DNA of 64,000 nucleotides from Methanothermococcus thermolithotrophicus DSM 2095. Lineage in GTDB: Archaea > AGJL01 > Methanococci > Methanococcales > Methanococcaceae. The notes beneath the pieces are model-generated. The model was not told the DNA's origin. It was given only the letters and a program-made list of their open reading frames with translations, and searched no databases. Below are positions 21,200 through 33,653 of this stretch, piece after piece (the stretch's first letter is position 1; the number at the start of each line of letters is the position of its first letter). A program made the position numbers and the translations under genes. The stretch lies in contig NZ_OX296583.1 in the NCBI RefSeq assembly GCF_946463545.1, positions 186,001 through 250,000 on the forward strand. Direction: 5' to 3'.

Positions 21200-22012
21200 A
21201 TGATAGTTAAAAAAAATAATAAATTTTGTAGTTTTTCAAGTGATAATGAGAAAACCGAAAGTATTGTTCCTAAAACACATCCAAGATATAAATCATTGTT
21301 AAATCGAGAGAAAATTGTGGAAGCTTTTGAAAGCGGAGTATTGGCAAAAAGTGGAATGATTGCCCATGGAAGAGGCGAAACATTCGATTACTTGATAGGT
21401 GAAAAAACCACAGAAATGGCATTGGAGTCTATAAAAACTGCAGCTGCGATGTTGGTGTTGGCAAAAAATCCAGTTATATCAATTAATGGAAACTGTGTTG
21501 CACTTGCAAAGGACGAACTTGTAGAACTTGCAGAGGCACTAAACGGAAAAATAGAAGTCAATTTATTTTATAGAACAAAGGAGAGGGAAGAAAAAATAAA
21601 AGAACTATTTGAAAATGATATCCAAGAAGGTAGAATAAAACTACTTGGTGTAGATGATGCAAATAAACAGATACCTAATTTAGATAGTTTAAGGGGAAAG
21701 GTTTCAGAAGAAGGAATATACACTGCAGATGTGGTTCTTGTACCTTTGGAAGATGGGGACCGTGCAGGAGCTCTTGTTAACATGGGGAAAAAAGTCATTG
21801 CAATAGACTTAAATCCACTCTCCAGAACTGCAAAGACCTCAACGGTAACCATTGTAGATGAACTAACTAGGTGTATACCTCTTATCACAAAATACGTCAA
21901 AGATTTCAAAAATAAAAATACAGATGAATTAATGAACATAATAAATAGCTACGACAACAATAATAACTTAAAGAAAGTATTGGCACATATTTCAAAAAGA
22001 CTTGAACAATAA
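21200..22012 (+). CDS. 4-phosphopantoate-beta-alanine ligase (phosphopantothenate synthetase)
   Basis: About 270 residues; archaeal enzyme that condenses 4-phosphopantoate with beta-alanine using ATP, replacing bacterial PanC in coenzyme A synthesis. [44 protein letters not shown] and the DLNPLSRTA segment are typical of COG1701. The start is the ATG at 21200 because GGATGGTGG precedes it; an upstream GTG in frame would lie inside this site. The N-terminus is about 20 residues longer than the conserved core. Confidence 0.9.
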
Positions 22013-22091
22013 AAAGGATAATAGAAAAATGGATAAAACGACCAGACTAATAATTTAGCAGATTTAAAAAAGTTTTTATTTAATTTATTTT

Positions 22092-23588
22092 TTATTTAAA
22101 TCCAAATTTTAATAGTAATTTCCCAAACTCTGTTATTTTTACCATTGCATGATTTTTTTCAACAAAACCATATTGAAGAAGCGGCTCTACCCTATCGTAT
22201 GCGGTTCTCCTATGGATCCCAAGTTCTTTTGCGAGCTCATCGATTTTTGCCGAACCACCCATATCATTAATTTTTAGGATTGTTTCTTTTGTTGCAGGGT
22301 GTTTTGTAATCATGTGAATTCCTTCTTTTGCACTGATTGAAATTAAATCAGGAATTATGGAACACATTGAAACAGTGTAGTTCATATACTCTTTGAATAT
22401 TATTTCCCCATAGGATGTAAAACCAAACATCGGATTTAAAGGACATTCCTTTAAACTGTTTTCTACAGCATCTTTAGATACTTCAGGTAAAAATGCAGAA
22501 ATACAGCAGAAGGTCACGAATGGAGAATATTTGGGGGGAGTATTTAGTATCAAATCAATGGGCTTTTTGAATAAACTTTCAATGGTTTTGTTGTCAATAT
22601 CGACAAGTTTTAACTCATTGTCCTTCATAATATTCGAGCCAAACACCAGCATATCATTCTTTATGGAGATAGGACCTTTTAGGTAGATTTCACCATCTGA
22701 ATTGATTACACCAAATGGATGGGAGAGATAAAAACTTCTATTTTTTCGAAGGTCCTCATTGGAACCTCTAAAGTTTGAGATGTCATTATAATACTCTATT
22801 GCATCGATATTATTCAATGTATAGACATATCTCTTGTTGGTTTCCGTTACTATGGTTTTATCCTCTTTTCCACCTAAATCCATTTTTAAATTTTCCTTAT
22901 GTTCATAACCCTGTGTCAAAATTTTTGATTTTGAGGATATTTGCGACTCTTTTGTGACATACGATGATATATTTGAATAACTTCCAAAGGATATCTTTGG
23001 TAAAATATCTCCTCCAAATGCGGCACAAACTACACTATCAAAATAAACATCATTACAGTATTGATAAGTTTTTTTAAATTCAAAATCATCCGAAGTGGTT
23101 CCTCCAAAAATTGGGGTTGTAATCCCTATGATGTCAACAATTCCCTTTAAAACATCTTCCTCAAACTTACAATAATCCATGAAAACCATCATTAATTTGG
23201 GCATCATTCCTAGATTTTCTATTGCATCATGTGCCGCCCTTCTTCCAGATTCTCTCGGATTTATGGAAACTCCTAAACCAACACCCAAGCCTACATTGAA
23301 ATATTTTGAGGCTAAAATCCCAACTGAAACTCCATCTTCAACCATATCGTTGTTTGTTATCCCAAATTTAGAAGTACCGCCAACTATTGGGGTTTTATTA
23401 CCCAAAATTAATTTTACCCCATTTAAAATTTCCTCCGGATCATAATCTGGTGAAGAGAATAAAAATGCAACTTTTGATTTTTCCGCATATTCATCTAAAT
23501 ACTTTAATGCATCCGATGTGGCATGAGCCCCTGCTTTTAGTGGGTTATCATCATTTGACGTTCCATGCCCAAACTCTATGAACTTCAC
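22092..23588 (-). CDS. FIST-domain sensor fused to a C-terminal winged helix
   Basis: About 498 residues. The N-terminal two thirds match the FIST_N and FIST_C ligand-sensing modules (PIVGGTSKFGI, GLGVGLGVSINPRESGR, LMMVFMDYC, PIFGGTTSDDF, PMFGFTSYGEI). The last about 75 residues form a winged helix (IDELAKELGIHRRTAYDRVE, then LLQYGFVEKN). I place the start at GTG 23586-23588: GGTG lies 5 nt before, and the likely TATA element (about 23620-23635 on the minus strand) puts transcription start after the upstream ATG. FIST proteins usually pair with signalling modules; here the DNA-binding tail suggests a one-component transcription factor. It is divergent from the two-component genes. Confidence 0.82.
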   Translation of the reverse strand: MKFIEFGHGTSNDDNPLKAGAHATSDALKYLDEYAEKSKVAFLFSSPDYDPEEILNGVKLILGNKTPIVGGTSKFGITNNDMVEDGVSVGILASKYFNVGLGVGLGVSINPRESGRRAAHDAIENLGMMPKLMMVFMDYCKFEEDVLKGIVDIIGITTPIFGGTTSDDFEFKKTYQYCNDVYFDSVVCAAFGGDILPKISFGSYSNISSYVTKESQISSKSKILTQGYEHKENLKMDLGGKEDKTIVTETNKRYVYTLNNIDAIEYYNDISNFRGSNEDLRKNRSFYLSHPFGVINSDGEIYLKGPISIKNDMLVFGSNIMKDNELKLVDIDNKTIESLFKKPIDLILNTPPKYSPFVTFCCISAFLPEVSKDAVENSLKECPLNPMFGFTSYGEIIFKEYMNYTVSMCSIIPDLISISAKEGIHMITKHPATKETILKINDMGGSAKIDELAKELGIHRRTAYDRVEPLLQYGFVEKNHAMVKITEFGKLLLKFGFK

Positions 23589-23722
23589 GCTAACACCAAT
23601 CATTACTTTCAGCTTTTATATTTATAATTCTGGATTATTAATACTTTATTCTATATATACTATATCCGTATTGGCAAACTTTAAATACAAAAATTAGAAA
23701 ACTTAGTACAATAGTTTGTGAT

Positions 23723-23743
23723 TAGTGACCCACAACACCACAA
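23723..23743 (+). promoter_or_regulatory. Formate-region operator-like site, copy B
   Basis: TAGTGA followed by CCCACAA-c-ACCACAA, with TGTG just upstream. It lies in the divergent region between the FIST regulator and the response regulator, about 145 bp before the latter and downstream of a TTTAAATAC-like TATA element (about 23680). It shares 18 of 21 positions with copies A and C. Confidence 0.75.
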
Positions 23744-23887
23744 GATGTAATATAGATTAGATACATAATCCATACCCATAATACTATGCAAGTATTGTTT
23801 ATATGCCACAGTGAACTGTGAATATTTATGAATATTTAAGTATACTATGGATATACAGGGTTATATAATAGGTTATATGGGGATAGT

Positions 23888-24259
23888 ATGTCTAAAATTT
23901 TGATAGTTGAAGATGAAGAAGATATTTTGAATTTAGTAAAAATAATTCTAGAAGTAAATGGGTATGAGGTACTAACGGCCAACAATGGATATGAAGCCAT
24001 AGAGCTCATGGAAGAAAGACCTGATTTGGTGCTACTGGATATAATGATGCCTGGGATGAGTGGTTGGGAAGTGCTAGATACCTTAAGATCCAAGGATGAT
24101 TGGAAAAAAACTCCTGTAATAATATTAACCGCAAATGCTCAAATAGAACATATAGAAATAGGTATCAAAAAAAATGTTGATGGGTATATTATAAAACCAT
24201 TTGAGAAAGAAGAGCTATTGGAAAGACTAAAAGAAGTTTTATCAAACAATACGGTGTGA
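23888..24259 (+). CDS. Single-domain response regulator
   Basis: A 123-residue CheY-like receiver with all key residues: E8/D9 acidic pair, phospho-acceptor D51 (LLDIMMPG), T81 and K103 (IKPF). There is no output domain, so it must act through a partner protein. The histidine kinase begins 4 bp after its stop. Candidate partners for output include the divergent FIST-winged-helix protein. ATG follows GGGGATAGT. Confidence 0.92.
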   Translation: MSKILIVEDEEDILNLVKIILEVNGYEVLTANNGYEAIELMEERPDLVLLDIMMPGMSGWEVLDTLRSKDDWKKTPVIILTANAQIEHIEIGIKKNVDGYIIKPFEKEELLERLKEVLSNNTV

Positions 24260-24263
24260 TTCT

Positions 24264-26183
24264 ATGAATACTATCCCAACTATCAAAAAACTTGGAACAA
24301 AACTTACTATTTTTTCAATAATTATTGCAGTAATTCCAATTTTGACGCTGGGAATGGTATCAACAACTACCATAACAGACACAATGGAAATACAGGCCCA
24401 GCAAAAAATTACCAATGATCTAAAAATTGCAGAAAATATTGTAAACAACAAAATAGAAAAATTACATGTGGCAGTTGTACATACGGCAAATGCTGAAGAA
24501 ACTGTGTCCGCCCTTAAAAATGGGGATAGTAAGAAACTTAAAGAAATGGCCAAACTAACAAAAGAGTCAGCAGGTGCTGATTTTGTAACAATTTTTGATA
24601 ATCGGGGGCGAGTAATTGCAAGGTCCAATAACGAAGTTATTGGGGATTATGAACTACCAAATTTAATTAAAAAAGTATTAAATGGGACTGAAATAAATTC
24701 CATTGAAATGTTGGATGAAGAAACCCTTAAAATGGAAAATTTGGAAAATGATGTAGAAATAAATATTTCAAAGACGTATAACTCAGCTGATGTCGATAAA
24801 TCCATTGAAAACAAGGGGATGGCGTTAGTATCAATTAAACCAATTAAGGACCATGATGGAAATATTGTTGGGGCGATAGTGGCTGCAGATGTTTTAAATG
24901 GGGATTACACTGTTGTGGATAAAGTAAAAGAAATTACTGGAGATACCGCCACAATATTTTTAGAGGGACTTAGAATATCCACAAATGTTCAAAAAGAAGA
25001 TAGCCGGGCCATTGGGACATTGGTTTCTAAAGAAGTATATCATGAAGTGATAAATAATGGAGAAACATACTATGGAAGAGCATTTGTTGTTACAGATTGG
25101 TATTTAACAGCATATAAGCCCATTAGAAATAGTGAAGGGGACATCATAGGAATGCTCTTCGTAGGTACGCCTGAAAAGCCATTCATAACCCTTGAGAACA
25201 ATATTAGAAATCAGTCTATAATAGTTGGAATTATTGGTTTGTCAGCTGCTTTAGGGGTTTCCCTTGTATTGAATAGAAAAATCACCAGACCTCTTGAAGA
25301 GTTGAAAAAAGGAGCTGAACTAGTAAGTAGTGGGAATTACAACTCCAGGGTGGAGGTTAAAACCGCCGATGAATTTGGAGAACTTGCCAAAGCATTTAAT
25401 AAAATGGCAGAGGAAATACGGATATCACATGAAAAACTTAAAAAACATGCTGAGGAACTGGAAAAGTCATATAACGAGTTAAAAGAACTCGATAAAATGA
25501 AATCAGACATTATAGTAATAGTCTCTCATGAATTAAGAACACCATTAACCTCAATTAAAGGTTATGTGGAGCTCGTTTTAGATGGAACTATAGGGCCTAT
25601 AACTGAATCACAGAGGAAATGTCTTGAAATTGCAGAAGACAATATTAAAAGATTAAAAAGACTCATAGAAAGTATGCTCGACTTATCCAAGATTGAGCGT
25701 GGAGAACTTGAAATGAATATGGAAGAAATTGGTATAAAGCATTTTGTAGAAAAAATTTTAAGTTCCCTAAAACCACTGGCCGATGAAAAAAATATCAACA
25801 TGAACCACGATGTTGAAGATATTGCCATTAAAGGGGATAAAGATAGAATAGCTCAAGTGTTAACCAATTTAGTGGAAAATGCTATAAAATTCACACCCAT
25901 AAACGGGAATATTGGAGTTAATGCTTTTAAAGAGAATGAGTACGCTCACATAACTGTTACCGATAACGGACCAGGAATTCCTGAAAAGGATTTGTGCAGA
26001 ATATTTGACAGGTTTTATCAAGTTGATTCATCAGCAAAACGGAAAAAGGGCGGTTCCGGATTAGGCTTGGCAGTATGTAAGAGTATCGTTGAAGCCCATG
26101 GTGGATCAATTTGGGTCGAAAGTAAACATGGAAAAGGAAGTACATTCCACATATTGTTACCTTTAAATCAAGACGAGGTATAA
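24264..26183 (+). CDS. Membrane sensor histidine kinase (Cache-HAMP-HisKA-HATPase)
   Basis: A 639-residue kinase. Membrane segments at about 13-35 and 317-337 enclose a roughly 280-residue extracellular sensor resembling the single-Cache sensors (TIFDNRGRVIARSN, IVGAIVAADVLNGDYTVVDKV, YYGRAFVVTDWYLTAYKPI). HAMP is about 338-392, then a coiled coil, HisKA with phospho-accepting H422 (VSHELRTPLTS), N box NLVENAIKF, G1 DNGPGIP, F box and G2 GGSGLGLAV. It senses an outside small ligand and phosphorylates the adjoining receiver. The placement upstream of fdhC suggests formate or a related signal, which is inference. Confidence 0.93.
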   Translation: MNTIPTIKKLGTKLTIFSIIIAVIPILTLGMVSTTTITDTMEIQAQQKITNDLKIAENIVNNKIEKLHVAVVHTANAEETVSALKNGDSKKLKEMAKLTKESAGADFVTIFDNRGRVIARSNNEVIGDYELPNLIKKVLNGTEINSIEMLDEETLKMENLENDVEINISKTYNSADVDKSIENKGMALVSIKPIKDHDGNIVGAIVAADVLNGDYTVVDKVKEITGDTATIFLEGLRISTNVQKEDSRAIGTLVSKEVYHEVINNGETYYGRAFVVTDWYLTAYKPIRNSEGDIIGMLFVGTPEKPFITLENNIRNQSIIVGIIGLSAALGVSLVLNRKITRPLEELKKGAELVSSGNYNSRVEVKTADEFGELAKAFNKMAEEIRISHEKLKKHAEELEKSYNELKELDKMKSDIIVIVSHELRTPLTSIKGYVELVLDGTIGPITESQRKCLEIAEDNIKRLKRLIESMLDLSKIERGELEMNMEEIGIKHFVEKILSSLKPLADEKNINMNHDVEDIAIKGDKDRIAQVLTNLVENAIKFTPINGNIGVNAFKENEYAHITVTDNGPGIPEKDLCRIFDRFYQVDSSAKRKKGGSGLGLAVCKSIVEAHGGSIWVESKHGKGSTFHILLPLNQDEV

Positions 26184-26348
26184 CAATATATTCTATTTAT
26201 TCTATTTTTTATTAATAACTTTTATAATGGGTAACTGAAATTCTCCTTTCATGGAGATTTTGAATTATTCTAAAATTTAAACAATCTAATACCTTCCCAT
26301 ATTTTTTAAACAATAAGGTATATATAATTGGAAAAAAAATAGATCTTA

Positions 26349-26369
26349 TTGTGGTTTTGTGGGGCACTA
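26349..26369 (-). promoter_or_regulatory. Formate-region operator-like site, copy C
   Basis: On the minus strand: TAGTGC, then CCCACAA-a-ACCACAA. It sits about 25-30 bp after the TATA element GGTATATATAATT (26317-26330) of the YbjQ-like gene, that is, over the predicted transcription start, as expected of a repressor site. The GGGGTG ribosome site follows at 26381. Confidence 0.75.
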
Positions 26370-26391
26370 TATTCACAATTGGGGTGTCTCA

Positions 26392-26661
26392 ATGAATAAA
26401 GTTATGGAAAAAAAATTTATAATTGCAACAACCTGTGAAATTCCAGGAATAGATGTCTATATATTGGATATAATATCAGTAACAGTTGATGATCTAAATA
26501 TGGAAGAGGTAATAAGCAAAATAAAAGAAAAAGCACGATCTATAGGGGCCAACGGAATAGTTGGATTTAATGTAGAAGCTGCAAATGATGGCAATTCAGT
26601 TAAGTTAATAGGATATGGTACAGCAGTTAAGTTTGTTGAAGGCCAGTGGGCGATAGATTAA
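26392..26661 (+). CDS. Small YbjQ/DUF74-like protein
   Basis: An 89-residue protein; start ATG at 26392 is supported by GGGGTG 6 nt before. The pattern of a helix around NMEEVISKIKEKARSIGANGIVGFNVE followed by a beta strand resembles the YbjQ pentameric heavy-metal-binding fold. It is shorter than typical YbjQ (about 105) and lacks metal-binding cysteines or histidines, so the metal role is doubtful. It lies between the kinase and fdhC with its own promoter and operator-like site, suggesting a part in the formate response. Confidence 0.55.
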   Translation: MNKVMEKKFIIATTCEIPGIDVYILDIISVTVDDLNMEEVISKIKEKARSIGANGIVGFNVEAANDGNSVKLIGYGTAVKFVEGQWAID

Positions 26662-26904
26662 AATACTTCTATAAAATAGCGAAAGTCTTATTTTATTACA
26701 TTTTATATTTATATTTTTGTTTTTTAGGATCTATCTGGAAATATTCACAAAAATATGTATTATTTAGTAACTAAAAAGAATTTCTTTTTTTAAATTTAGT
26801 TAAGTTCCTTAAATTGCTTCCAAATTGGAAATAAAATATTATTTATAGTTTTTGATATGATTTTAATCGAAAATTATATATTGATATAATCTTATATGTG
26901 TGGT

Positions 26905-26925
26905 TAGTACCCCACAAGACCACAA
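26905..26925 (+). promoter_or_regulatory. Formate-region operator-like site, copy A
   Basis: TAGTAC, then CCCACAA-g-ACCACAA, with TGTGGT upstream. It lies about 25 bp downstream of a BRE/TATA (CGAAAATTATATATTG, about 26868-26883), so it overlaps the likely start of the fdhC transcript. TGTGGT and ACCACA also form an inverted repeat. Confidence 0.78.
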
Positions 26926-26950
26926 CTACCATTATATAGGAGGTATGATT

Positions 26951-27775
26951 ATGGACTTAAATCCCCCAGATAAAGTAGTAGAATTAGCAGGAAATGTAGG
27001 ACAATATAAAGCAAATTTAGGGGTAAATCAACTCCTATTAAGGGGAATTATGGGAGGGGCCTATATTGCCATGGGTGCTGGACTTTGCACCATCTGTAGT
27101 ACAGGTATAGCTCAATATCTAGGTCCAGGATTTGCAAAACTCATAGGAGCTTCAGTGTTTCCTGTTGGGCTTATTTTAATCATACTAACAGGTATGGAAC
27201 TTGTTACCGGAGACATGATGCTTTTACCTATAGCAATGTTTCAGAAAAAGGCATCACTCTCACAGCTTCTGAAAGTCTGGATTTGGGTATATATCGGAAA
27301 CCTTATAGGTTCCTTAATATATGTGGCAATAATGATATACGGTCCGCTTAGAACATTCAACACCGGAACAGGAGAATTTGCAGTTAACGCATTTGGTCAA
27401 ACCGCAATCAAAATAGCTGAAGCCAAAATTCTTCCATACGTGGCTGGTGGAGCCTTTGGATGGCTGTCCTGCCTTCTGAAAGGTATTGGATGTAATTGGT
27501 TAGTTAATCTAGCTATAATGGGTTCAATGGCATCTACGAGTGTCCTGGGGAAATTTTTCATGATATGGTTCCCAATAATGACATTCGTTGCATCAGGATT
27601 TGAGCACTGTGTGGCCAACATGTACTTTATCCCTGCCGGAATGTTACTTGGAGCAAATGTTACAGTCGCACAATGGTGGATATGGAATATAATCCCTGCC
27701 ACAATAGGAAACATAATTGGAGCAACATTATTCGTAGCTATGGTGTATCAATATGCATATGGTAAAAAAATCTAA
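26951..27775 (+). CDS. fdhC: Formate transporter (FNT family)
   Basis: A 274-residue FdhC with six membrane segments. MGGAYIAMGAGLC and TGMELVTGDMM, then LLKGIGCNWLVNLA and GFEHCVANMYFIPAG, are the FNT pore signatures. It imports formate, the electron donor for methanogenesis. I chose the ATG at 26951: the AGGAGGT ribosome site (26938-26944) is 6 nt upstream, whereas an ATG two codons earlier touches it. It heads the fdhC-unknown-carbonic anhydrase-fdhA-fdhB series, the same order as the Methanococcus maripaludis fdh1 locus as I recall it. Confidence 0.95.
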   Translation: MDLNPPDKVVELAGNVGQYKANLGVNQLLLRGIMGGAYIAMGAGLCTICSTGIAQYLGPGFAKLIGASVFPVGLILIILTGMELVTGDMMLLPIAMFQKKASLSQLLKVWIWVYIGNLIGSLIYVAIMIYGPLRTFNTGTGEFAVNAFGQTAIKIAEAKILPYVAGGAFGWLSCLLKGIGCNWLVNLAIMGSMASTSVLGKFFMIWFPIMTFVASGFEHCVANMYFIPAGMLLGANVTVAQWWIWNIIPATIGNIIGATLFVAMVYQYAYGKKI

Positions 27776-28301
27776 TACAAGTATGAAAGAGATAATAAAG
27801 CATGCTAAAACCACTCCGTCTGCAACTCTATCTTTAATAGTCTGGTCTTTAATAACAATTTGGGCCACAATCTACTCAAAAAATATTTGGGTATTTATTT
27901 GTTCTTTACCCTTTATAGTAGGTTTAACTATAATTCCACTAAAAATTTCAGAAATGAACAGTGAACTTTCCCAAAAACTCAGTGCACTATATGGGGCCAG
28001 CTTAACTATCAATAAAATTGAAGATGTCACTAAAGATATGCTAAACAGCCAGGTTAAAATAGCAGGAATTATAGAAAAAATAACCTATGGGATCTCGCCC
28101 AAACCCACAATTAAAATTAAAGATGAAACTGGAGAAATATATTCCATGCTATTTACGCCATTACCTGACGGTGTAAAAAAGGGAGATAAAATAGAACTTT
28201 ATGGTGTTGTAACTAAGCACTATAAGTTTTTTGGATTTATGGGGATTCCACGACTCTGGAAACCAAAAATCTATGGTATTGGTGTTAAAAAGTTGGATTG
28301 A
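27753..28301 (+). CDS. Two-TM protein with a C-terminal OB-like domain, function unknown
   Basis: Up to 182 residues. Its frame overlaps the last 23 bp of fdhC; the exact start is uncertain (ATG at 27753, 27759 or 27783). Two membrane segments (about 25-43 and 47-66) precede a soluble domain with a beta-rich OB-like pattern (QVKIAGIIEKITYG, IYSMLFTPLPDGVKKGDKIELYGVV). Located between the formate transporter and carbonic anhydrase, it is probably in the formate operon. I do not recognise the family. Confidence 0.65.
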   Translation: MHMVKKSNTSMKEIIKHAKTTPSATLSLIVWSLITIWATIYSKNIWVFICSLPFIVGLTIIPLKISEMNSELSQKLSALYGASLTINKIEDVTKDMLNSQVKIAGIIEKITYGISPKPTIKIKDETGEIYSMLFTPLPDGVKKGDKIELYGVVTKHYKFFGFMGIPRLWKPKIYGIGVKKLD

Positions 28302-28314
28302 TGGAGGTTAGACC

Positions 28315-28767
28315 TTGAGCTCCGATGCAAAACCTAAGAAGAAACTTGCAATAGTTACTTGTATGGATTCTCGTCTGGTAAACTTTCTCTCTGAGAAACT
28401 TGGAATAAAGAGAAATGATGCCAAGGTTATTAAAAATGCCGGAAATATCGTAACCGATGATGTAATAAGATCCCTTGTAGTGTCGATATATCTTCTTGAT
28501 GTTGAAAAAATTATGGTTGTGGGACACACAGATTGTGGTATGGCTTCAGCAGATGCTGAATTGATTAAAAAGAAGATAATCGAAAGAGGCGGAAATCCTC
28601 ATTTCACTCCTAACTTTGAATGCTGGTTAGGTAAAATGGAGTCCATAGAAGATAACGTAATTGAAGGAGTTAATTTAATAAAAAATCACCCTGCAATTCC
28701 AAAGGATGTTACTGTTGAAGGATATCTAATAGATATTGAAACTGGAGATCTTGAAAAATTGTGTTAA
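28315..28767 (+). CDS. cab: Beta-class carbonic anhydrase
   Basis: A 150-residue enzyme interconverting CO2 and bicarbonate. Zinc ligands C16, H71 and C74 (TCMDSR and VGHTDCGM) and the D18/R20 dyad are intact. It is shorter at the N-terminus than the Methanothermobacter Cab. Start is TTG with GGAGGT 6 nt upstream. Placed between fdhC and fdhA, it likely handles the CO2 made from formate. The frame stays open for 20 further codons after the TAA, probably by chance. Confidence 0.9.
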   Translation: MSSDAKPKKKLAIVTCMDSRLVNFLSEKLGIKRNDAKVIKNAGNIVTDDVIRSLVVSIYLLDVEKIMVVGHTDCGMASADAELIKKKIIERGGNPHFTPNFECWLGKMESIEDNVIEGVNLIKNHPAIPKDVTVEGYLIDIETGDLEKLC

Positions 28768-28926
28768 TCCCTTGTGGATGATGCTTTTGCTGACACACTT
28801 AAAAACTACATGCCCGTAGAGTCACCATAAATGCATAAAATACCATTTTTTATCTTTAGTATTTATTATTTTATTATTTGTATCAATTAACAATCATGAC
28901 ACATATAAATGTACAAAAATAGCACC

Positions 28927-28960
28927 CGCTATTTGTGAACCTTTTAAGGAACAGGTAGCG
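28927..28960 (+). promoter_or_regulatory. SECIS element in the fdhA 5' leader
   Basis: CGCTATTTGT (28927-28936) pairs with ACAGGTAGCG (28951-28960), closing an asymmetric internal loop with GAA (28937-28939) on the 5' side and a single A (28950) opposite. A short CCT/AGG stem with loop TTTA caps it. This is the archaeal SECIS layout (GAA/A loop plus a short GC stem). It lies 54 nt before the fdhA ATG, and the M. jannaschii fdhA SECIS is likewise known in the 5' UTR. It directs the UGA at 29408 to be read as selenocysteine. Confidence 0.88.
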
Positions 28961-29014
28961 AAGAAAGACCCAAAACTTCCCTACGTTACTTATGATTAAT
29001 ATAGGTGATTATAA

Positions 29015-31042
29015 ATGAAGCTGGAATTTGTCCACACAATTTGTCCTTACTGCGGTACTGGCTGCGGTGTGGATCTAGTTGTAAAGGATGGAAAAATTGT
29101 TGGAACAGAGCCCTTCAAAAGACATCCTGTAAACGAAGGAAAAACTTGCATTAAAGGAAATTATTGTTACGAGTTTGTCCACCGGGAAGACAGATTAACA
29201 AAACCATTAATCAAGAAGAATGGTGAGTTTGTTGAAGCTACATGGGACGAAGCTTTGACTTTAATTGCAGATAAATTGAAAGGTTATAGCCCAGATGAAA
29301 TCGGATTTTTTTCATCTGCAAGATGTACAACCGAAGATAATTATGCCCTTCAAAAGTTTGCAAGGGCGGTAATGAAAACTAATAACATAGATCACTGTGC
29401 AAGGCTTTGACACTCTGCAACTGTTAAAGGTCTTGGGGAAGCTTTTGGGTCCGGTGCTATGACAAATTCAATTGGAGACATTGAAGATGCAGATTGTATA
29501 TTGATAATAGGTTCAAATACATTTGAACAACATCCACTTATTGCAAGGAGAGTAATTAAGGCAAAAGAGAAAGGTACCAAGGTTATTGTTATTGATCCTA
29601 GGGAAACTCCAACTGCAAAACAGGCCGACTTATATCTCCAAATAACTCCAGGTTCAAATACTGCATTTTTAAACGGTCTAATGAACGTTATCATAAATGA
29701 AGGTTTGATTGATGAAGAATTTATAAGAAATAGAACAAAAGGTTTTGATGAATTAAAAAAGACTGTGGAAAAATATACTCCAGAATATGTCTCAAAGATT
29801 TGTGGCGTATCGCCTGAATTAATTGTAGAAGCAGCAAAGATGTATGGGAGTGCAGACAAAGCTTCAATACTTTACTGTATGGGTGTAACTCAATTTATAC
29901 ATGGGGTGGACAACGTAAAATCATGCTGTAATTTAGCAATGATAACTGGGAACATAGGTAAAAGAGGAACTGGAGTCAATCCATTAAGAGGTCAAAATAA
30001 CGTTCAAGGAGCCTGCGATATGGGAGCTCTACCTAATGTATTCCCAGGGTATCAAAAAATAGAAGAGGCTTATGAAAAATTTGAAAAGGAATGGGGTGTT
30101 GAATTAAACCATGAACCTGGTTTATCAATTCCTGAAATCCTTGAAAAAGCAGGAAAAGAAATAAAATGCATATACATTATGGGTGAAAACCCAATGGTTT
30201 CTGATCCAGATGTTAACCACGTGAAACACGCTTTGGAATCTTTAGATTTTATGGTTGTTCAGGATATATTCCTAACTGAAACTGCTCAATTAGCCGATGT
30301 AGTTCTTCCAGCGGCGTGTTGGGCAGAGAAAGATGGAACATTTACAAACTCTGAAAGAAGGGTTCAAAGAGTAAGAAAAGCGATAGATCCTCCTGGAGAA
30401 GCACTTGAAGACTGGAAGATAATAAAGAGACTTGCTGAAAAAATGGGGTATGGCGAACTGTTCGACTTCAACTCTCCGGAAGAAATTTTCGAAGAAATAA
30501 GAAGAGTCACTCCGCAGTATGCAGGAATTAGCTACAAAAGATTAGGCGTTGATGGATTACACTGGCCATGTAAAACTGAAGATGATCCCGGAACCCCAAT
30601 TTTACATACTGAAAAATTCTTAACAAGTGATGGATTAGGAAATATATTCCCTGTTGAATATGGGGATCCTGCAGAGCTCCCTGACGATGAATATCCATAC
30701 ATACTTACAACAGGAAGGATAATATTCCACTACCACACAGGAAGTATGACTAGGAGAAGTAAGCACATGGCCGACGAAATAAACGAGGGATTTATTGAAA
30801 TTCATCCTGAAGATGCCAGAAAATTGGGAATTAAAAACAAAGATCTTGTAAAAGTAGTTTCAAGAAGAGGAGAAGTAACTGTAAAAGCAAATGTTACTGA
30901 AAACATTAAAAAAGGTGTAGTATTCATGCCATTCCACTTTGCAGAAACTACTGCAAACACATTGACAAATCCTGCTCTTGATCCAAACTGTAAAATCCCG
31001 GAGCTCAAAGTTTGTGCAGTTAAAATAGAAAAAGCCGAATAA
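29015..31042 (+). CDS. fdhA: Formate dehydrogenase alpha subunit, selenocysteine-containing
   Basis: A 675-residue molybdopterin oxidoreductase, read through an in-frame TGA at 29408-29410 (Sec132, context [15 protein letters not shown]). The frame is clean on both sides and the Sec sits where the FDH active-site Sec/Cys belongs. An N-terminal [4Fe-4S] site (C10, C13, C17 and CIKG) and bis-MGD motifs are visible ([46 protein letters not shown]). It oxidises formate to CO2 and hands electrons to FdhB and F420. ATG follows AGGTGATTATAA. Software that stops at TGA would split the gene in two. Confidence 0.97.
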
Positions 31043-31086
31043 ATACCAATACCTCCTATTATATATTCTGGTAATTGAGGGATAAT

Positions 31087-33653
<2,567 letters not shown>

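Follow-up and report, generated by a model that had tools for sequence, protein, structure and literature searches.

What holds back formate uptake when formate is not needed is the question that the formate locus of Methanothermococcus thermolithotrophicus DSM 2095 raises. The repression of formate use by hydrogen (H2) in Methanococcus has been a problem for about two decades, and the response regulator implicated in it genetically has no DNA-binding domain. We analysed a 64,000-nucleotide stretch of the genome (contig NZ_OX296583.1, positions 186,001 to 250,000 of the forward strand; hereafter the window), in which the genes for a protein with FIST and winged-helix domains (minus strand), a response regulator, a histidine kinase, a selenium-binding protein, the formate transporter FdhC, a 182-amino-acid protein, a carbonic-anhydrase-like protein and the formate dehydrogenase subunits FdhA and FdhB follow each other in this order. 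A first-pass annotation of the letters had noticed a 21-base-pair (bp) operator-like site at three promoters of this region. Judged from sequence comparison, the three sites are copies of a real, conserved operator that defines a small formate/selenium regulon and is presumably bound by a protein, for which the FIST-winged-helix protein is the best candidate.

Results

The operator and its uniqueness

The pattern TAGTRMCCCACAANACCACAA occurs without any mismatch at 23723-23743 (plus strand), 26349-26369 (minus strand) and 26905-26925 (plus strand), exactly where the first-pass annotation had placed its sites. As it had also said, the window holds no further copy, even when up to three mismatches are allowed, a tolerance at which shuffled windows give 0.03 matches per window. 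In the whole genome (1,706,496 bp) no copy besides these three was found with up to two mismatches, and the remaining matches all have three mismatches, one being intragenic and the other lacking TGTG and unrelated to formate genes. The control pattern, read backwards, gave 0 matches in the whole genome. In other genomes, matches with three mismatches within genes (for example the recurrent TAGTACCCTCCAATACCACAT type inside one transporter-like gene) were set aside as chance or coding conservation. Moreover, a site model (A1, R1), built from 22 sites by sequence only, was scanned over 36 Methanococcales genomes, of which 14 have fdhC and 22 do not; widening the search to the phylum brought in no genome from outside this order. 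R1 gave 27 strong matches (24.5-41 bits), namely 14 at fdhC, seven at a second fdhAB operon, five at the selenium-binding-protein gene and one at the response-regulator promoter. The scores of these matches are high by construction, as they are the model's own training sites, whereas the lack of other matches is not: outside those promoters nothing in all 36 genomes exceeds 16.8 bits, about 8 bits below the strong set. Neither scan thus finds the sites scattered over the genome. In being recurrent and sequence-specific, and in keeping its place at the core promoter from species to species (14 fdhC promoters and the selenium-binding-protein promoters), the site behaves as the operator of a transcription factor with a small regulon.

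Conservation in Methanococcales

The site lies at the predicted fdhC start in all 14 genomes with fdhC, so that its expected presence upstream of fdhC orthologues is borne out without exception. In an ungapped alignment of these 14 promoters, which span two families, the mean major-base frequency is 0.96 in the 21-bp site versus 0.55 at -200 to -70, and the core TAGTACCCCACAAGACCACAA is identical in the M. thermolithotrophicus window and in genomes G015-G019, G021 and G034. The second fdhAB operon, present in seven Methanococcus-like genomes, has the site upstream in every one of them. At the selenium-binding-protein promoter, inverted counterparts exist in nine further genomes, strong ones in G002, G007, G034 and G023. 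The studied genome, G002, G007 and G034 have the inverted site complete and in G023 it can still be recognised, whereas G015, G016, G017, G018 and G030 retain it with a decayed promoter-proximal half. Judging by gene order, we take G015-G018 to be Methanococcus and the studied genome to be of a formate-using, Methanothermococcus-like kind. The site tracks fdhC, not fdhA: the R1 scan found it in none of the 22 genomes without fdhC, and fdhA is present in 24 genomes, 10 of which lack fdhC, the site and the regulator alike, some of these being sister to species with fdhC (G034/G035, G007/G001 and G002/G012). The site between the FIST-winged-helix and response-regulator genes (site 1) has no counterpart in the 12 other genomes in which this intergenic region could be read whole (in G034 it is broken by a contig end), and therefore the signalling branch is peculiar to the studied genome. 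The proposal of a regulon joining signalling genes to formate uptake and oxidation is thus supported with one qualification: the link to the signalling genes belongs to this genome only, and the conserved members are fdhC, a second fdhAB operon and the gene of the selenium-binding protein.

Anatomy of the operator and its place at the promoters

The 21-bp site is exact, but the element is longer than had been described because the TGTG upstream belongs to it; the full element is TGTG-N12-CACA-N4-CACA, 29 bases with the consensus CATATGTGAGGNTAGTACCCCACAAGACCACAA (26897-26925 at fdhC). Of the 22 sites in the alignment, 18 have TGTG 16 bp ahead of the first CACA, and the second CACA follows 8 bp further. 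The distance of 2-6 bp that had been given for TGTG agrees with the 2 bp found at site 1, the 4 bp at the selenium-binding-protein site and the 2 or 4 bp at fdhC, where the sequence reads TGTGTG; the direct repeat of CCACAA with a period of 8 bp is present as well. In G015-G018 an extra TGTG before the second fdhAB operon fills a vacant lattice position, giving TGTG-N4-TGTG-N4-CACA-N4-CACA, and the fdhC promoter has TAGT at this position. Such an inverted arrangement of four half-sites suggests cooperative binding by two dimers. The best centre in a dyad scan was column 18.5, with 48% complementarity, a modest margin among sites of shared ancestry, and for these two reasons the palindrome reading leans mainly on the second fdhAB sites. 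In G019-G021 (L053, L054 and L096) the fdhC operator is lengthened by a third CCACAAG repeat.

The centre of the fdhC TATA box precedes the first base of TAGT by about 27 bp, which brings the predicted start of transcription to the site's left edge. A TATA-like stretch stands at the corresponding place in the aligned orthologous fdhC promoters, offset by 8 bp in G002, and the TATA box of the selenium-binding-protein gene keeps its position relative to the inverted site in the orthologues. The site had been said to cover the likely starts of fdhC and of a 'YbjQ-like' gene, and the TATA boxes of both promoters indeed predict a start that falls at the site or just within it. The label of the latter gene has to be replaced, as TIGR03884 identifies its product as the methanogen selenium-binding protein (equivalog, 86.5 bits versus a cut-off of 44.65). 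Archaeal repressors typically overlap the start, downstream of the TATA box. A second conserved stretch, TATTTA-NNN-TTTTTGAWATGA, lies upstream of the fdhC TATA box at 26840-26859 of the window, which is -65 to -46 from TAGT; its mean major-base frequency in the aligned fdhC promoters is 0.73 versus a background of 0.55, and it is possibly an activator site or a second promoter.

The candidate regulator

The FIST-winged-helix protein is the best candidate binder because it is the sole member of the FIST/response-regulator/kinase module with a recognised DNA-binding domain. The response regulator consists of a receiver (residues 4-114 of 123) with no DNA-binding output domain, and is thus not a classical DNA-binding regulator. 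The FIST protein belongs to the FIST family (PF08495/PF10442; FIST N 98.4 versus 23.2 bits, FIST C 31.8 versus 28.5 bits). Its C-terminal 78 amino acids alone match the TrmB winged helix (PF01978) with 27.3 bits against a cut-off of 25.6, and the whole protein stays below this cut-off with 23.2 bits and was not filed as TrmB. No domain of the protein is better conserved than the winged helix, whose recognition helix contains the invariant segment HRR..YDR. The AlphaFold model has a mean predicted local distance difference test score (pLDDT) of 61, with fair confidence confined to the winged helix (430-494).

Full-length orthologues (51-67% identity) occur in exactly the 14 genomes with fdhC and in none of the other 22, in which the FIST proteins found were unrelated only (E above 1e-13). 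A profile search of the genome contigs with the FIST alignment gave one locus only, in G030 and already in the set, a result that says little about other orders. Orthologues of the Cache kinase and the adjacent response regulator occur in the same 14 genomes, and TIGR03884 scores above its cut-off in these 14 of the 36 too. In addition, the module is unlinked to fdhC yet retained in G023, G024 and G030 (on a separate contig in G030), so that the regulator proposed in the first-pass annotation accompanies fdhC and the site even where it is not their neighbour. On a GatE tree the co-occurrence pattern needs five parsimony changes, with sister contrasts in G034/G035, G007/G001 and G002/G012. In G019-G021 the module lies beyond fdhB and not upstream of fdhC, and paralogues of the Cache kinase (37-44% identity) are found elsewhere in the Methanococcus-like genomes G015-G018. 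The order of locus tags suggests that mmp1305 of M. maripaludis may encode the FIST-winged-helix protein. In the resequenced laboratory strains S2/S0001 this gene, mmp1305, has a fixed substitution (PMC8479958).

Proposed mechanism and alternatives

We consider it fairly probable that the operator is bound by the FIST-winged-helix protein, which would act as a start-site repressor tuned by the two-component pair. The protein would sit on the operator over the fdhC start and at the partner promoters, and would obstruct RNA polymerase at the point of initiation as long as formate is not required (at high H2). Having no recognised DNA-binding domain, the response regulator and the Cache kinase would adjust this binding through protein contact. 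A more elaborate and tentative form, to which we give somewhat less than even credence, is a three-part regulator in which the membrane Cache kinase signals to the receiver-only response regulator and this to the FIST winged-helix protein, which, as ligand sensor and DNA-binding protein in one, represses formate uptake, the second formate dehydrogenase and selenium supply through one four-half-site operator, present in complete form at the second fdhAB promoter. If this were true, it would be a switch with two inputs, an outer signal and an inner ligand, of which we found none described for archaea.

Published data on M. maripaludis fit a repressor: an fdhC-lacZ fusion is repressed by H2, and disrupting the response regulator beside fdhC raises the fdhA1 transcript (Wood 2003/Sattler 2013, reviewed in PMC10025317). 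Among the thermophiles surveyed in the same review, three grow on formate, and these are the ones that have fdhC (PMC10025317). Under selenium depletion the mRNAs of the selenium-binding protein and fdhC both fall by 2.4-2.7 log2 and those of fdhA1 and fdhB1 stay constant, from which the authors inferred that the promoters there are incompletely mapped (PMC11097638). An operator shared by just the selenium-binding-protein and fdhC promoters fits this joint fall and offers a reason why it leaves out fdhA1/B1.

Several points weigh against the FIST protein as start-site repressor. The selenium-binding protein rose (+3.3) while its mRNA fell in the same study (PMC11097638), and loss of repression and altered activation would account equally well for the phenotype of the response-regulator disruption. 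No paper that maps transcription starts at fdhC turned up in a literature search. The co-occurrence corresponds to about five changes on a single-gene tree, where the four supported independent pairs agree (sign test, p 0.125, significance being out of reach at n=4), and in genomes that link the module to fdhC, the gain or loss of one block would suffice.

Furthermore, co-occurrence denotes functional linkage and not binding, the FIST protein is tied to DNA by its winged helix only, and any widely conserved transcription factor could bind the operator. It may accordingly be asked whether another, more widely conserved factor does so, the FIST protein and the two-component pair acting elsewhere in formate physiology. 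We hold this to be unlikely: a general regulator would be expected to have other targets, none of the 22 genomes that lack fdhC has the site, and the FIST protein, the only module member in which a DNA-binding domain was found, adjoins a site in the studied genome. HrsM, the known selenium regulator, binds the frc-vhc intergenic region (PMC11097638), and R1 finds no site above noise at other loci of the Methanococcus-like genomes, which argues, indirectly as the frc-vhc region was covered by the model scan only, against a HrsM regulon.

The FIST protein might instead be an activator that stimulates fdhC from the promoter on sensing formate or low H2. Cells with a disrupted response regulator grew more slowly on formate (PMC10025317), and the conserved element at -65 to -46, upstream of the TATA box, stands at the usual place for archaeal activators. 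However, the operator itself lies over the predicted start and downstream of the TATA box, the usual place of an archaeal repressor, and the disruption raised rather than lowered the fdhA1 transcript; an activator is unlikely on these grounds. That the element works in RNA, as a structure or processing signal of the 5' leader, is very improbable: the predicted fdhC leader does have it at its start, but every genome that carries it at the selenium-binding-protein gene has it inverted there, and this flip of orientation between genes marks it as a DNA operator; Rfam gives no match in 22000-32300. Finally, the long word common to the sites could in principle stem from chance or from duplicated promoters without function, which is hardly credible at 0.03 matches expected per window, with 96% conservation in the site versus 55% in the flanking intergenic DNA across two families, and with unrelated flanks and different orientations at the fdhC and selenium-binding-protein promoters.

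The start-site repressor therefore remains the reading that we prefer, and the operator, together with a single candidate DNA-binding protein found only alongside it, makes it directly testable in the genetically tractable M. maripaludis.

Features of the region

The coordinates are collected in Table 1. The open reading frame of fdhA is called as two because of an in-frame TGA at 29408-29410 (residue 132, CARL-TGA-H), which probably codes for selenocysteine. The operator ties selenium supply to formate uptake, formate dehydrogenase being a probable selenoprotein here and a selenoprotein in M. maripaludis. The 182-amino-acid protein (27753-28301), which follows fdhC in all 14 fdhC genomes, has N-terminal hydrophobic stretches and an OB-like C-terminus, and gave no match in Pfam or NCBIfam.

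Table 1. Genes and promoter elements of the formate region (positions of the window)
Feature	Position	Strand	Basis
FIST-winged-helix protein, proposed regulator	22092..23603	-	Pfam FIST 6.5e-28, FIST_C 1.8e-07; start at GTG 23588 suggested by orthologue alignment
TATA-like TTTAAATA before site 1, perhaps the promoter of the response-regulator/kinase operon	23680..23687	+	sequence only
Operator between FIST-winged-helix and response-regulator genes (23723-23743 + TGTG)	23717..23743	+	exact match; 25.2 bits with site model
Single-domain response regulator	23888..24259	+	Pfam Response_reg 4-114 of 123 amino acids
Cache-HAMP-HisKA-HATPase histidine kinase	24264..26183	+	Pfam
TATA box of selenium-binding-protein gene	26319..26327	+	sequence; about 30 bp before inverted site
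Operator at selenium-binding-protein gene, inverted relative to the gene (26349-26369 + TGTG 26374-26377)	26349..26377	-	exact match
Selenium-binding protein	26392..26661	+	TIGR03884 equivalog (score in text)
TATA box of fdhC	26874..26881	+	sequence (spacing in text)
Operator at fdhC (26905-26925 + upstream TGTGTG)	26897..26925	+	exact match; gapless alignment with 14 fdhC orthologues; over predicted transcription start
fdhC, formate transporter	26951..27775	+	Pfam Form_Nir_trans 9.9e-78; 14/36 genomes
fdhA, formate dehydrogenase catalytic subunit, in-frame TGA	29015..31042	+	translation
fdhB, formate dehydrogenase beta subunit	31075..32241	+	NCBIfam F420-hydrogenase-beta-like match

Comparison with known systems

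The closest counterpart is fdhC-fdhA1B1 of M. maripaludis, which shares the order of the gene cluster, the H2 repression of fdhC and the effect of the response regulator on fdhA1 (PMC10025317). The main difference is that the publications consulted name neither an operator nor a DNA-binding protein for it, a gap that the operator and the FIST candidate would fill. HrsM, a LysR-type, selenium-dependent repressor of Methanococcus (PMC11097638), likewise represses methanogenesis genes in the same organisms, where fdhC and the gene of the selenium-binding protein respond to selenium status too; its known target is the frc-vhc intergenic region, whereas R1 finds the present site at no other locus of those genomes. 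The TrmB-family regulators (PF01978) have a winged helix like that in the isolated tail of the FIST protein, where it is C-terminal, behind the FIST domains, and no TrmB sensor domain was found. The nitrogen repressor NrpR of M. maripaludis recognises the operator GGAA-N6-TTCC, which resembles the present one in lying just past the TATA box, close to the start, where a repressor binds it as is proposed here, and is unrelated to it in sequence and gene set. As for the NosP/FIST sensors, the NosP equivalog model NF041558 gives 33.4 bits, far below its cut-off of 450; the FIST-winged-helix protein shares the FIST N and C domains with these sensors and, unlike them, carries a DNA-binding domain of its own.

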